Origin: Coprothermobacter platensis DSM 11748
Lineage (GTDB): Bacteria > Coprothermobacterota > Coprothermobacteria > Coprothermobacterales > Coprothermobacteraceae
Length of the DNA stretch: 64,000 nucleotides
Reading direction: 5' to 3'
NCBI RefSeq assembly: GCF_000378005.1
Contig: NZ_KB899040.1
Location: forward strand, 1,069,145-1,133,144
Shown: piece after piece, positions 54,503-64,000 of the stretch
Position numbering within the stretch: position 1 is the stretch's first letter
Layout: each line of letters starts with the position of its first letter
Program-made: the position numbers and the translations under genes
The notes under the pieces: generated by a model
The model's database searches: none
Told to the model about the DNA's origin: nothing
Seen by the model: the letters and a program-made list of their open reading frames with translations, nothing else

Positions 54503-54868
54503 CTACACTTGTTGTTGAGGTCTGACTTTTTGTAGTATCTTTACAATCTCTTCCGTTCTTAAAACCTTACCGTAAGAGACCACTTTCCCATCAACTACTA
54601 AAGCAGGCGTTGTCATGACGCCATAGGCCGCAATCTGCGAGAAATCCGTTACATGGTCAATGGTAGTATCCATGCCAAGTAGCTTAAGTGCCTCTTTTGT
54701 TGCCGCCTCAAGCTGATTGCATTTTGCGCACCCGCTTCCGAGGATCTTTACGCTCGCGCCCTCGTCTTTAGCATGTTCGGCCTTTGCCATATTTTCTGCA
54801 TCGCAGTTTCCTCCGCTGCAGGATGTTGTTTCTTCCTCTTTCTTTTCGAATGGTAACATGTTTATCAT
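54503..54868 (-). CDS. thioredoxin-like (redox-active disulfide) protein
   Basis: A 121-aa thioredoxin_3 type protein with active-site CAKC (VKILGSGCAKCNQLE), an N-terminal tail with SCSGGNC, and a C-terminal region TTPALVVDGKVVSYG. Such TM0996-like proteins are usually encoded beside a permease and an ArsR regulator, as here. It follows the permease by 8 nt and would act with it. Possibly delivers reducing power for metalloid handling (inference). GC looks higher than in neighbouring genes. Confidence 0.87.
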   Translation of the reverse strand: MINMLPFEKKEEETTSCSGGNCDAENMAKAEHAKDEGASVKILGSGCAKCNQLEAATKEALKLLGMDTTIDHVTDFSQIAAYGVMTTPALVVDGKVVSYGKVLRTEEIVKILQKVRPQQQV

Positions 54869-54876
54869 ACCCCTTT

Positions 54877-55902
54877 CTATATAATAAATCCCTGAATAGC
54901 GTTAAAAAAGTAGCCTACTACAATAATACCAATAGTGCAAATTACGATGAACAACGTCAGCAGTTTCGGCTTGACCGCCTTACGCAGCATAATCATAGAT
55001 GGTATAGATAGCGTGGTGACGGCCATCATGAACGAAAGAACAGTCCCGAGGTTGGCCCCTTTTGATAACAGGGCTTGTGCAATCGGGATGACACCGAATA
55101 TATCGGCATACATCGGAACGCCGACAAGAGTAGCCAATACTACGCCAAACGGATTTTTACTGCCCAGGGCCGCGACCACCCATTCCTCGGGAATCCAGTT
55201 GTGAATAACGGCCCCGATGCCCACGCCGATCAGGATATATGGGAATACCTTTTTAAAGGTGGACAGCATCTGGTCCTTCGCATAAGCCAAGCGCTCCTTG
55301 ATAGTCAGGTTGGGTGATTCTAAGTCTACGCTTCCTGCCGTCATAACAAAGCTTTCCACATGCCTTTCCATGTGCAGCCCTTCAATAATCGTACCGCCAA
55401 TGACAGCGATAATGAGTCCGACGATTACATATATGACGGCTACTTTCGTACCGAAAATGCTCATTAGCAGAAGCAGAGAACCCAAGTCGACCATGGGGGA
55501 AGAGATGAGGAACGAGAACGTTACCCCAACAGGAAGCCCCGCCGATGTAAAACCGATGAACAGTGGAATGGATGAGCAGGAACAAAACGGCGTTACTGTA
55601 CCAAGTAAAGCCGCAACTGAATTAGCCCAGATGCCATGGAACCGACCCAATATCTTCTTACTGCGCTCAGGCGGGAAATAGCTCTGAATATAACTGATAA
55701 AGAAAATCAAAAAGCACAACAATATAGTGATTTTGATAACATCGTAGGCAAAAAACTCGATACTTCCGCCCAAACGGGTGGATGTTTCCAGCCCCATACC
55801 GGAAAGGGCACTTCCTATCAGTTCATCGAGCCATCTCATGCCAAGAATTTGATATTGAATAAAATCCCAAATCCCTTTTAATGTTTGCATCTTGAGAAAC
55901 AT
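54877..55902 (-). CDS. permease (DUF318 / ArsP-like)
   Basis: A membrane protein of 341 aa with about eight to nine transmembrane helices. The segments TPFCSCSSIPLFIGFTSAG and FLISSPMVDLGSLLLL are the COG0701 hallmark containing CSCSS. ArsP relatives export trivalent organoarsenicals; others are of unknown substrate. A half-conserved ArsR-type site lies just upstream. ATG 55902 or ATG 55890 could be the start. Together with arsR and the thioredoxin-like gene it forms a cassette with different composition from the rest, so transfer is likely. Confidence 0.85.
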   Translation of the reverse strand: MFLKMQTLKGIWDFIQYQILGMRWLDELIGSALSGMGLETSTRLGGSIEFFAYDVIKITILLCFLIFFISYIQSYFPPERSKKILGRFHGIWANSVAALLGTVTPFCSCSSIPLFIGFTSAGLPVGVTFSFLISSPMVDLGSLLLLMSIFGTKVAVIYVIVGLIIAVIGGTIIEGLHMERHVESFVMTAGSVDLESPNLTIKERLAYAKDQMLSTFKKVFPYILIGVGIGAVIHNWIPEEWVVAALGSKNPFGVVLATLVGVPMYADIFGVIPIAQALLSKGANLGTVLSFMMAVTTLSIPSMIMLRKAVKPKLLTLFIVICTIGIIVVGYFFNAIQGFII

Positions 55903-55926
55903 CCTACATTCAATTTAGAAAACCTC

Positions 55927-55946
55927 ATATCAAATAATTTTGACGT
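55927..55946. promoter_or_regulatory. second ArsR-type site, upstream of the permease
   Basis: ATATCAAA then four bases then TTTGACGT; same half-site and spacing as the arsR operator, with the right arm partly diverged. Preceded by the same ACCTC as in the arsR site. Confidence 0.55.
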
Positions 55947-55981
55947 CTTCTGCTTCATAAAAGCCATACGGGTGATGGTTT

Positions 55982-56296
55982 CTATTGTTTGCAACATGTA
56001 TTCGCATCTAAACATGCGTTCGGCGTTGTTAGCTCTTTCAGCAGCGCAACTGCGTAAGCACTGCCTTTTTCGCTGATCTTATAGTGCACCCATTTTCCTT
56101 CTTGTCGGCTCTCCACAATACCTGAATCAACTAAAATCTTCATATGATATGAAAGCCCTGACTGTCCCAAGTCTAATTGTTCAAGAAGGACACAGGCACA
56201 TTTCTCACCACTGCGCAAAAGCTCAAGTATTTGTAGACGCTTTTCATCGCAAAATGCTTTAAATATCTTTGCTTGCTCCTTATATTTTGTATCCAA
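55982..56296 (-). CDS. ArsR family metalloregulator
   Basis: A 104-aa winged-helix regulator with LRSGEKCACVLLEQL (the CxC metal-binding signature of ArsR), recognition helix LGQSGLSYHMKILVDSG and wing VESRQEGKWVHYKIS. The protein has further Cys at its end (ANTCCKQ), where metals may also bind. TTG 56296 with GAGGTG. It probably represses itself and the permease through the two dyads. Metalloid inducers such as arsenite are likely (inference). Confidence 0.9.
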   Translation of the reverse strand: MDTKYKEQAKIFKAFCDEKRLQILELLRSGEKCACVLLEQLDLGQSGLSYHMKILVDSGIVESRQEGKWVHYKISEKGSAYAVALLKELTTPNACLDANTCCKQ

Positions 56297-58865: not shown

Positions 58866-59279
58866 TCCGTAGCCGTAAATTTTATACATGCTGCCAACGT
58901 TATAGAACTGCAAGTAGGCAATCCAGTATTCAAAGTAAACGGCAAATCTATGACTTTAGACAGCCCGCCGATAATCAAGAACAGCAGGACTTTGCTGCCT
59001 ATCAGAGCAGTTGTAGAAGCTATGGGAGGCACTGTAGCTTGGTCTGAAGCAAAAAAACAAGTAGCAATAAACTATAAGGACAACTCTATTGTCTTGATAA
59101 TTAACAATAACATAGCGGTTGTAAACGGTGCAGTAAAGCAAATTGATGAAAACAATCCTAATGTAGTGCCTGAGATAATCAATGGACGAACGATGCTACC
59201 TCTAAGGTTTGTAGCTGAATCGCTTGGTTGTCAGGTCAGCTGGGATGACAAGACGAAAACTATAACAATTACCTATTAG
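58866..59279 (+). pseudogene. fragment of a copper-amine-oxidase-N (stalk) domain protein
   Basis: The 138 codons after the FNT stop, in the same frame, encode only the C-terminal stalk region: VIELQVGNPVF, SPPIIKNSRTLLPIRAVVEA and NGRTMLPLRFVAESLG. It aligns from SVAVNF to the end with the C-terminal stalk of the 36536 protein and to the subtilisin at 61337. The N-terminal part is missing and no start with ribosome site is seen (the first ATG is 58950). It is a truncated paralogue, probably left by recombination; expression is doubtful. Confidence 0.7.
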
Positions 59280-59454: not shown

Positions 59455-60945
59455 ATGGAAGTACAAAAAGTGTGGGACGACAGCTACAAAATGCTGATCG
59501 GTGGTAAATTCGTAGATGCCAGCGACGGTAAGACGATTAAGTCCTACTGCCCCGCCGACGGTGAGCTATTGGCTAGTTTTCCAGAAGCGACAAAGGAAGA
59601 TGTGGATACTGCTGTGAAAGCCGCATGGAAAGCATTTGAATCGTGGAAGAATGTCAGCGCAGCAGAACGTCAAGACATCTTAATGAAAATCGCAGATGCA
59701 ATCGATGCAAACAAGCAGAAGCTTGCCATGATTGAAACGATGGACAATGGTAAGCCAATCCGCGAAAGTATGGGAGACATCATGCTTGGTGCTGACCATT
59801 TCCGCTACTTTGCAGGCGTTGTGAGAAGCGAAGAAGACCAAGCATCCATAATCAATGACCCTGGTTCTGGTAATAACCTTAGCATCATCCTTCGCGAGCC
59901 CATAGGCGTAGTTGGACAAATCATACCATGGAACTTCCCATTTCTTATGGCAGCATGGAAGCTTGCACCAGTAATAGCTGCGGGATGCTGTACAGTCATT
60001 AAGCCATCGAACTACACGTCACTTAGCTTATTAGAATTGGCGAAATTAATTGCACCTATTGTTCCTCCGGGTGTAATAAATATTGTCACAGGCAGAGGTT
60101 CCACAACAGGGCAATACTTACTCGATCATCCTGATTTCCGCAAATTAGCGTTTACAGGATCTACAGAAGTAGGCTACAGCGTTTCTGAAGCCGCAACTAA
60201 AAAGCTGATCCCTGCAACGTTGGAATTAGGTGGAAAATCTGCGAACATCTTCTTCTCTGACTGCAATTGGAGAAAAGCTATCGACGGTGCTGAAATGGGA
60301 ATTTTGTATAACCAAGGACAAGTTTGCTGTGCTGGTTCACGCATCTTTGTGCAAGAAGATATTTATGACAAATTTGTGGCAGAACTTGTTGAAGCCTTCA
60401 AAAAGGTAAAAGTGGGGTTGCCGTGGGAACACGATACGCAAATGGGATCTCAAGTGAGTCAAGAGCAGTTGGATAAAATTCTTTCTTATGTTGAGATTGG
60501 AAAAAAGGAAGGAGCCAAAGTAGCTGTAGGCGGAGAAAGGAACACTGAGGGTCCATTGGCAAAAGGCTTCTTTATGAAACCCACTTTATTAATCGATGTT
60601 GATAACAAGATGAGAGTTGCTCAAGAAGAAATCTTTGGGCCAGTTGCATGTGTGATCAAATTCAAGAATGAAGAGGATGCTATTGCCATGGCTAATGACA
60701 CGCAATATGGCTTAGCAGGAGCTGTTTGGACACAAGATATCAATCGTGCTATACGGGTTGCGAGGGGCATTGAAGCCGGTAAAGTATGGGTGAATCAATA
60801 TAATAATCTACCTGCGGGTACTCCATTTGGTGGATACAAGAAATCGGGTATTGGCCGAGAAACCCATAAAATGATCATAGATGAGTACAGCGAGATCAAA
60901 AACATATTCATTAGCCTTGATGAAAATCCCACAGGATTATACTAA
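59455..60945 (+). CDS. aldehyde dehydrogenase (betaine/retinal aldehyde DH-like)
   Basis: NAD(P)-dependent aldehyde dehydrogenase, 496 aa. WNFPFLMAAWKLAPVIAAG, general base Glu257 in LELGGKSAN, nucleophile Cys291 in GQVCCAGSR and EEIFGPV are all standard. Specificity is not evident; oxidation of amino-acid-derived aldehydes is likely in this organism. The ATG follows GGGGGTG. The small selenoprotein candidate starts 28 nt after the stop and probably belongs to the same transcript. Confidence 0.94.
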   Translation: MEVQKVWDDSYKMLIGGKFVDASDGKTIKSYCPADGELLASFPEATKEDVDTAVKAAWKAFESWKNVSAAERQDILMKIADAIDANKQKLAMIETMDNGKPIRESMGDIMLGADHFRYFAGVVRSEEDQASIINDPGSGNNLSIILREPIGVVGQIIPWNFPFLMAAWKLAPVIAAGCCTVIKPSNYTSLSLLELAKLIAPIVPPGVINIVTGRGSTTGQYLLDHPDFRKLAFTGSTEVGYSVSEAATKKLIPATLELGGKSANIFFSDCNWRKAIDGAEMGILYNQGQVCCAGSRIFVQEDIYDKFVAELVEAFKKVKVGLPWEHDTQMGSQVSQEQLDKILSYVEIGKKEGAKVAVGGERNTEGPLAKGFFMKPTLLIDVDNKMRVAQEEIFGPVACVIKFKNEEDAIAMANDTQYGLAGAVWTQDINRAIRVARGIEAGKVWVNQYNNLPAGTPFGGYKKSGIGRETHKMIIDEYSEIKNIFISLDENPTGLY

Positions 60946-60972
60946 AAGCAGCCTATGGAAAGGAGATTGTAC

Positions 60973-61179
60973 ATGGTGATCACATTAGAAACACCGGTGG
61001 AAGACATTGTAAGAATTCCCGGTGCAGTAACCTATCTTACCGAGCAAGGGGTCTCACCTATTGGTTGAGATGGACCATTCCCAGGAACGCTCGGCAGGTT
61101 GCTCGAGATTAAAGGAATAACTGACACAGAAAAGTTTTTAGCACAGCTTAATGATTTTATAAATAAGCAAGGCAAATAG
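60973..61179 (+). CDS. probable small selenoprotein (DUF1858-like) with in-frame UGA
   Basis: ATG 60973 (AAGGAG upstream) to TAG 61177, 68 codons, with an in-frame TGA at 61066-61068 (codon 32). The part before the TGA reads VEDIVRIPGAVTYLTEQGVSPIG and that after reads DGPFPGTLGRLLEIKGI and LAQLNDFINK. Both halves form one domain resembling DUF1858-type proteins, in which the position equivalent to the TGA is usually Cys before a GxPxWGTL-like stretch. A hairpin 21 nt after the TGA (61090-61107) has stem CUCG/CGAG, bulged U, upper stem GCA/UGC and loop GGU. Sec insertion is the likeliest reading; a nonsense mutation is the alternative. Confidence 0.65.
61090..61107 (+). promoter_or_regulatory. 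candidate bacterial SECIS hairpin
   Basis: Left arm CTCGGCA, loop GGT, right arm TGC-T-CGAG with one bulged U: seven pairs. The upper stem and GGU loop match the recognised shape of the E. coli fdhF SECIS, although the bulge here is on the 3' side. The loop begins 28 bases after the UGA, in the usual bacterial range. Confidence 0.55.
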
Positions 61180-61336
61180 TTCTTAACATCTTCAAAATTA
61201 TGGGCAAAAAATGGCTGTGGCTCGTTTCATAGCTCTGGAACGGGCAACAGCCATTTCCATATAGCAGAGTAAAAATACCTCTGTCATGCTACAATGCGGA
61301 GTATAAACAAGGTGGTATCCGGGGAGGGTGAGTTTA

Positions 61337-64000
61337 ATGACAAAAACAATCAAGAGGCTTACGGTAATCTTTCTTACATTGGGACTTCTGTGTCCAATAA
61401 TAATGCCAACACCCTTAAAAGCAAACACATCAAATAAAATACTTTCAACTCTTCCACCAGCAGTTTTGACATCCACGTCCTTTCAAAGTGTGCTGATTAC
61501 CTTGAAAGACGCGCCTGTAATTGAATATGAACACCGTAAAGGGATTTCCCATTTGAATGCAAATACGATCAAAGCTGACCAAAATGCAACTAAATACGAA
61601 ACTAAACTTCTACAAAAACAGGCACAAACGATAGCCGAAATCAAACAACTGGTTCCTGATGCAAAAATAGGTTACAACATCACTTGGACACTGAATGGAT
61701 TTACGCTACAAATAAAAGGTATTGATATAAAACGTATAACTGATATTGCAGAAATAGGCTCTGTTTACTTGATAGAAGAACCAACTTATGACAAGTTAGG
61801 CAACTATATGGGACATTCGCCTATTGTAAAAGCGCAAACACTTACACCTACCTATATAGAGATAAATGATGATTTGTACAAAGAAATACACTTAAACGAT
61901 GTGTGGCAGATGAAGGATGCTGTAGGTGATGAATTAACTGGTAGCGGAATGATTGTAGCACTCATCGATACTGGAGTAGATTACACACATCCAGATTTAG
62001 GAGGATGCTTTGGTCCTACATGCAAGGTCATAGGTGGATATGATTTTGGAGACAATGATAATGACCCCATGGATCAAGTGGGCCATGGAACAGAAGTTGC
62101 AGGCATATTGGCAGCAGATGGTGGTATCAAAGGAGTGGCACCAAAAGCAAAAATTCTGGCTTATAAAGTCATGCCTACACTTACTTCCAGCACTTCTACT
62201 GCTGGCGTGCTTTCAGCAGTAGAGAACATTCTTCCAGCCATCGATAAAGCCGCCAAGGATGGAGCAAATGTAATAAACATATCCATGGTAGAAAGTATTT
62301 CCACAAATGCGGCTTACGGACAAAAAGTAATAGAGAATTTAGACAATTTGGGTGTAACGTTAGTAGCTGCGGCTGGCAACTACGGTTCAGCTCTTTATTG
62401 TTCAGAACCTTTGGCGCCTTCTTTTTGCCAAGCGGGGTTCTCTGCTCCACTCATGACAACATTCACACAGCCGAATGTGATTACAGTGGGCGCGTCTCAC
62501 TCAGATGGTGAATCTACTAATGGTATAGATGATTACTCCTCTATGGGACCATCTGTAGACTTCAGACTAAAACCAGATTTAGTTGCACCAGGATTTGTTT
62601 ACACAACTGCAATGGAAATTGGTTACTATGAACCATCAGGAACATCCTTTGCTGCTCCCATAGTTTCATCCATGGTAGCTCTTTTAAAACAAGGGCATCC
62701 AGACTGGAGTGAACAAGATATAAGAGCTGCATTAATGAACACATCAACTATTTTAAGTAACGAGGATAATAACGAACCAATAACAATGTTGTTGCAAGGT
62801 GCCGGTAGAATAGATGCGTTAGCTTCCATGAAGACACCGCTGCTTATAACGCCCTACTCTATCTCTCTAACGGCAACTAATTTAAAACCAATTAATTTAA
62901 CAATAAGAAACGTAAGTGGAGTGAATCAGAACATAACGGCATCAGTGCAGCTTACACTAGGGAATTTTGCTTTAGGCGCAAATGATGGGCTCACGTTATC
63001 TCTCTCTGCAAGCACAGTTTACTTACCTAAAGATGCCTCTGCCACAATAACACTCACACCATCTGCCGATTTAAATAAATTGGAGAAAGGGCCTCATGAA
63101 GCCATAATCTGGGTAAGCAACGGAACAACGCAGCTTCACGTGCCTGTGCTTATCTGGAATGATCCAAGCGCTTGGTGGTTCCCAGTTACAGAAAGCAGGC
63201 CTTCCAAGTTAGGCGATGTCAAAGCCTTATCATCCACAATTGATTTTAGTAATCCACGACAGCGCACAGCAACGATTGATTTTACCTTAAAAGCAGGTTC
63301 AATGCTGGTAGATACTACCACAACTATACCGTTGGGATACCTTGGTAATCATGTGTACCTTGTGAAGCTCTGCATTCTTGATGAAAACAACTCTACCATT
63401 GCGATAGCGTATTCCAAGGATAAATTACTTATAGGGCACTATGAAGCTTCATGGAACGGGCTCGATAAAGAAGGGCTTCCAGTTAAAAATGGCAGGTATA
63501 AATATGTGCTGGCTGCATCAGACTTGGGCTTTGGTAATATGGAATTTCTCGATGTAAATATCGATACCGCATCGGGTTACATAGAGGTAAAAAACAGTCC
63601 GGAAATCACTCTTCCTACAATAGCGCTTAATATTCCAAACGAAGTTACCGTTACAAAATATGTATTTCAACCAGATCCAACCTTTACACTCGTGGGCAAA
63701 ACTGATGTCGGTAACACGATAGAAATCAACGGCCAAAATGTAGAAGTAGATGATAGTGGCGCATTCACCATAGATATTCCCCTTCTCGTGGGTGATAACG
63801 TCGTAACCATAAATGCCCATAAAACTATGCTTGGCTATATAAAAGTAGACAACACAAAGTATGTAACAATCAATTTGCAACCACTCAATCTTATCGAGCT
63901 TGTGGTGGGCAAGCAGCAGTTCCAAGTAAATGACCAAACAAAAACGCTGGATGCTCCGCCTGTAATTAAAAACAGCCGGACTTTACTTCCCATAAGAGCC
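61337..64000 (+). CDS. subtilisin-like S8 protease with FlgD-like and stalk domains, partial (3' end outside window)
   Basis: An open frame of 888 codons runs to the window edge. A signal peptide (about 1-30) precedes an inhibitor-I9-like propeptide (about 60-150) and the S8 domain: Asp211 in LIDTGVDYTHPDLGG, His250 in GHGTEVAGI, Ser437 in SGTSFAAPIV. After the catalytic domain (to about 490) come beta-rich domains (about 500-700), a FlgD-like segment (about 704-730), another beta domain (about 780-835) and the beginning of a stalk domain (SRTLLPIRA). Such extracellular proteases fit the proteolytic life style. Start ATG 61337 follows GGGGAGGGTG. Confidence 0.93.
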   Translation, partial: MTKTIKRLTVIFLTLGLLCPIIMPTPLKANTSNKILSTLPPAVLTSTSFQSVLITLKDAPVIEYEHRKGISHLNANTIKADQNATKYETKLLQKQAQTIAEIKQLVPDAKIGYNITWTLNGFTLQIKGIDIKRITDIAEIGSVYLIEEPTYDKLGNYMGHSPIVKAQTLTPTYIEINDDLYKEIHLNDVWQMKDAVGDELTGSGMIVALIDTGVDYTHPDLGGCFGPTCKVIGGYDFGDNDNDPMDQVGHGTEVAGILAADGGIKGVAPKAKILAYKVMPTLTSSTSTAGVLSAVENILPAIDKAAKDGANVINISMVESISTNAAYGQKVIENLDNLGVTLVAAAGNYGSALYCSEPLAPSFCQAGFSAPLMTTFTQPNVITVGASHSDGESTNGIDDYSSMGPSVDFRLKPDLVAPGFVYTTAMEIGYYEPSGTSFAAPIVSSMVALLKQGHPDWSEQDIRAALMNTSTILSNEDNNEPITMLLQGAGRIDALASMKTPLLITPYSISLTATNLKPINLTIRNVSGVNQNITASVQLTLGNFALGANDGLTLSLSASTVYLPKDASATITLTPSADLNKLEKGPHEAIIWVSNGTTQLHVPVLIWNDPSAWWFPVTESRPSKLGDVKALSSTIDFSNPRQRTATIDFTLKAGSMLVDTTTTIPLGYLGNHVYLVKLCILDENNSTIAIAYSKDKLLIGHYEASWNGLDKEGLPVKNGRYKYVLAASDLGFGNMEFLDVNIDTASGYIEVKNSPEITLPTIALNIPNEVTVTKYVFQPDPTFTLVGKTDVGNTIEINGQNVEVDDSGAFTIDIPLLVGDNVVTINAHKTMLGYIKVDNTKYVTINLQPLNLIELVVGKQQFQVNDQTKTLDAPPVIKNSRTLLPIRA

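Follow-up and report, generated by a model that had tools for sequence, protein, structure and literature searches.

A candidate cysteine-free selenoprotein of the DUF1858 fold encoded directly behind an aldehyde dehydrogenase gene in Coprothermobacter platensis

Selenoproteins of the DUF1858 superfamily have already been catalogued in a CxxU form (PMC9312934, PMC13188914), and CxxU is the only arrangement given for DUF1858 in a review (PMC13188914). Here we describe a gene of Coprothermobacter platensis DSM 11748, at positions 60973-61179 on the plus strand of a 64,000-nucleotide stretch of contig NZ_KB899040.1 (hereafter the window), whose predicted product does not have the catalogued CxxU motif and reads PIGU instead. 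The literature that we searched, with partial coverage, yielded neither a PxxU, cysteine-free, aldehyde dehydrogenase-paired form nor any report of DUF1858 together with aldehyde dehydrogenase, and we regard the protein as a new aldehyde dehydrogenase-linked variant within the DUF1858 selenoproteins. Our overall explanation, to which we give a probability of roughly 85%, is that this gene of an aldehyde dehydrogenase operon contains a UGA decoded as selenocysteine and specifies a 68-residue protein with the DUF1858 fold, probably a redox partner of the enzyme. Separate variations on the catalogued theme were seen elsewhere in our material: two classic DUF1858-type genes of other genomes, L064 2086 (+) and L066 2174 (+), carry a TGA at the first Cys (GUVGC and GULGC) and are candidates for a UxxC form, and a CxxU DUF1858-like gene in L065 (minus strand) has its TGA in CYGUGG and an unusual insertion after the motif. 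The 'hypothetical protein DG' of deep-Sep (GUxG; PMC13188914), whose source organisms are Desulfosediminicola (PMC12013277), was weighed as a match for the GUDG of the window protein; its family, NF049953, was not among the matches of the NCBIfam scan.

The reading frame runs from an ATG at 60973 to a TAG at 61177-61179 and is interrupted solely by a TGA at 61066-61068, codon 32, all as the initial annotation had described. A Shine-Dalgarno-like AAAGGAG (60959-60965, + strand) lies 7 nt before the ATG. Translated with selenocysteine at the TGA, the product is MVITLETPVEDIVRIPGAVTYLTEQGVSPIGUDGPFPGTLGRLLEIKGITDTEKFLAQLNDFINKQGK, in which the motif is SPIGU, Cys is absent, and only Sec32 offers a chalcogen for a selenenylsulfide bond. 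Downstream, a stem-loop at 61210-61255 (+ strand), which was missing from the list of a simple terminator scan and has no clear T-run, folds at about -33 kcal/mol (z -5.3 in a 98-nt fold) and is the probable end of an operon; with so strong a structure after the small gene, the aldehyde dehydrogenase and the small gene probably constitute a complete short operon. Genes of this type would ordinarily be cut in two or dropped by annotation. Judged from the sequence, the UGA is very probably read as selenocysteine within a 68-residue protein.

When profiles were built from Cys-containing relatives only, with the window protein left out, a six-frame search of the window recovered the N-terminal half with an E value of 2e-10 and, separately, the C-terminal half with an E value of 1e-11. 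The initial protein search had returned Cys relatives in distant genomes; in these, the column of the TGA holds Cys without exception, namely the second Cys of CxxCGEPxWGTL. With a broader profile search and a read-through listing, a much closer relative came to light, L057, with the motif SPFSC; a scan with a two-row alignment of the window protein and L057 added three more relatives, and another three came from searching two sets of genomes. In all seven close relatives (L057, L071, L072, L073, L079, L092 and L093) the TGA column is Cys, encoded by TGC or TGT, within the motif SP[FI]SC[AS]GAFP, and the window protein is 43-46% identical to these SPxxC proteins. Cys thus stands at this position in every relative aligned, the residue that had been anticipated there. 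A scan of genome contigs with the single window protein gave no match, nor did plasmid records, and within the limited sample no second TGA-bearing SPxxC/U member was found in another organism.

The genome is equipped to decode such a codon. Within its 1.42 Mb it encodes all four of the components for which a check had been suggested: selA (616 bits) and selB (384 bits), which are adjacent, selD (390 bits), which has its own in-frame TGA in KASGUGAK, and selC, a tRNA-Sec with the anticodon UCA. GrdA (CSVU) and GrdB (UGTC) of glycine reductase are, like SelD, Sec genes of this genome, each with an in-frame TGA, and selA to selD, GrdA and GrdB all lie on the contig of the window. A combined selenium and glycine reductase region, G000 C1 93899-114571 (L099, L100), contains genes for tRNA-Sec, GrdE, GrdA, GrdB, GrdC, GrdD, SelD, SelA and SelB, together with aminotransferase-like (possibly cysteine desulfurase), YedF/TusA-like and thioredoxin-reductase-like genes.

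Downstream of the UGA, at 61090-61107 (+ strand), the transcript is predicted to form a SECIS-like 7-bp hairpin, CUCGGCA-GGU-UGC(U)CGAG, with a GGU loop 28 nt from the UGA, a bulged U in the 3′ arm, and an energy of -8.9 kcal/mol with the lower stem or -7.3 in its minimal form. The initial annotation had compared it to the SECIS element of fdhF, whose bulged U is on the 5′ side; the GGU loop stands at a distance from the UGA that suits a SECIS element. GGU hairpin tips also occur 18-33 nt past the UGA in SelD, GrdA and GrdB (3/3 other Sec genes examined), and none follows the Cys codon in any of the seven Cys genes. The generic rules for bacterial elements (bSECIS: loop of 3-9 nt, stem of 4-16 bp, MFE ≤ -7.5, G in loop positions 1-2, 16-37 nt from the UGA; PMC13188914) accommodate the hairpin, as they do 12 of 60 shuffled sequences. 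The overall stability of the 66-nt region is not unusual (z -0.41), and since whole-region fold statistics carry no signal, we judged the hairpin by its position and loop. Six of 700 random TGAs in the window (0.9%) and 75 of 1500 synonymous recodings (5%) did as well, chance levels at which the hairpin adds support but does not carry the case. Among the 18 TGA-split ORFs of the window, only this gene has, at a suitable place, a hairpin with GGU that folds at -7 kcal/mol or lower.

Placement of the protein in a family depends on profile and fold comparisons. Searched alone against Pfam and NCBIfam, the window protein has no match, and the SPxxC relatives reach at most 29.1 bits against DUF1858 (PF08984), below the Pfam gathering score of 32.2 bits. 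Profile alignment with hhalign against classic CxxC members of DUF1858 gives probabilities of 98-99%. An AlphaFold2 model (pLDDT 89) places Sec32 in a loop between helices and matches the DUF1858 structure 2k53 with a TM score of 0.72 and a Z of 8.0, values of Z near 8 being modest and flagged by the program itself as near background; 2k53 is also found by sequence profile (E 3e-4). Because hhalign, the sequence profile and the fold agree, we conclude that the protein belongs to the DUF1858 superfamily as a diverged branch that falls outside the Pfam cut-off. The earlier suggestion that both halves form one DUF1858-like domain is therefore sustained as regards the homology of the halves, but not as regards a Pfam match of the protein alone.

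The association with aldehyde dehydrogenase, also put forward at the outset, is conserved. The upstream gene (59455-60945, + strand) encodes an ExaC-like aldehyde dehydrogenase of 496 aa (PF00171, Aldedh, E 4.5e-177), whose best NCBIfam match is NF050026 ExaC at 601.7 bits, under the 900-bit cut-off. Its stop lies 27 bp from the small gene, which is thus situated directly behind it, as described initially. The same type of aldehyde dehydrogenase is found upstream in 6/7 Cys relatives, at gaps of 17-32 bp, with L093 as the one Cys relative that does not adjoin such a gene; these neighbouring enzymes are 66-68% identical to that of the window over their full length, and 71-73% where partial. At least three unrelated lineages carry the pair: one genus accounts for L057 and L071, one order for L073 and L079, and others are labelled Atribacteria and Clostridiales. 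Neither gene is present in eight other genomes of the phylum to which the window belongs, so the two were probably acquired together. The enzyme has the motifs GQVCCAGSR, with the catalytic Cys, and LELGGKS, with its Glu. The pair is flanked by a free-standing ORF for a copper amine oxidase N-terminal-type domain (58950-59279, + strand) and by a gene for a large S8 protease (61328-64000, + strand) with a copper amine oxidase N-terminal-type domain at its visible end. Farther away, at 54503-56296 on the minus strand, genes for an ArsR-like regulator, an ArsP_1 permease and a Thioredoxin_3 protein stand in a row, a set that looks like one for arsenic or organo-metal export.

We propose the following sequence of events. 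The small gene would be transcribed as the second gene of the aldehyde dehydrogenase operon, and the SelB and tRNA-Sec of the genome would decode UGA61066 with the hairpin as guide. Because a second Cys is absent, Sec32 must react with a partner molecule; catalytic Cys residues of aldehyde dehydrogenases are prone to oxidation, and the co-encoded enzyme is the most economical candidate, which points to a role in thiol protection or reactivation. Sec32 may be joined to another molecule through a selenenylsulfide, the likeliest counterpart being the catalytic Cys of the aldehyde dehydrogenase or its oxidised form, such that the catalytic thiol would be kept in, or returned to, the reduced state, and the selenol could then be regenerated by thioredoxin or a small thiol. 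Sec probably replaced Cys in a host whose glycine reduction already relied on selenoproteins. That the protein serves to keep the catalytic thiol reduced is a tentative assignment, with somewhat less than an even chance of being correct.

A nonsense mutation or sequencing error, by which a Cys codon has become, or was misread as, TGA and the true product is either truncated or a Cys protein, would account for the finding of a single Sec member: TGC and TGT are one base from TGA, and with about eight codons one change away from TGA, the Cys codon would be struck by chance about once in eight times. We consider this very unlikely in a genome with the full Sec machinery and other Sec sites, for a gene with an otherwise undamaged frame and a good Shine-Dalgarno sequence, followed by a hairpin that 7/7 Cys genes lack after the Cys codon.

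If selenocysteine is inserted, its chemistry could still be other than thiol protection. The small protein might act as a carrier or catalyst, with Sec32 taking an acyl group from the aldehyde dehydrogenase thioester or forming an adduct with the aldehyde; were the lone Sec32 to exchange with the thioester or thiol of the active site in this way, the pair would amount to a two-component selenium-dependent aldehyde dehydrogenase. A lone Sec with no resolving Cys, the strict pairing with one type of aldehyde dehydrogenase, and the precedent of GrdA, a small Sec protein of the same genome, all accord with this idea, and GrdA carries a carboxymethyl group on its Sec. However, the Glu of known non-acylating aldehyde dehydrogenases activates water, and since the enzyme retains this residue in LELGGKS an acceptor should be unneeded; the relatives, moreover, use plain Cys. 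We regard both the carrier role and the two-component enzyme as quite improbable. Delivery or repair of metal or iron-sulfur centres, with a link to aldehyde dehydrogenase that is only regulatory or metabolic, is unlikely as well, if a little less so. The related ScdA_N/YtfE domain has a proposed role in metal or iron-sulfur delivery or repair, classic DUF1858 members show a weak match to ScdA_N, and E. coli YtfE resembles our model in its N-terminal domain (Z 8.1-8.2), although such values are again close to background. A single ligand residue is poorly suited to cluster binding, and aldehyde dehydrogenases are not known to have an iron-sulfur cluster.

Under the preferred reading, a selenoprotein that is the redox partner of its neighbouring enzyme, the locus adds a distinct small selenoprotein subfamily, SPxxU, with a single Sec and no Cys. 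The pairing of genes names a likely physiological partner, an ExaC-like aldehyde dehydrogenase, for one branch of a functionally unknown superfamily, and the existence of Sec and Cys versions of one pair offers a direct route to testing the thiol function of DUF1858.

Among known systems, the window protein resembles the catalogued DUF1858 CxxU selenoproteins (PF08984; for example WP_012065717.1), with which it shares fold, size and the placement of Sec where CxxC has its second Cys, but the first Cys is replaced by Pro, no Cys is left, and the protein falls below the Pfam model. The structure 2k53 (A3DK08, Clostridium thermocellum) has the same fold over the entire chain at about 20% identity, with a classic CxxC (MHCLGC) in place of PxxU. 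The N-terminal domain of YtfE/ScdA (PF04405) is alike in fold but is part of a larger iron-sulfur repair protein, and the window protein has no significant sequence match to PF04405. The SPxxC relatives behind aldehyde dehydrogenases (L057, L071, L072, L073, L079 and L092) have both motif and neighbour in common with the window protein; they differ in that Cys relatives use a TGC or TGT codon with no GGU hairpin after it, whereas the window gene combines Sec with the hairpin.
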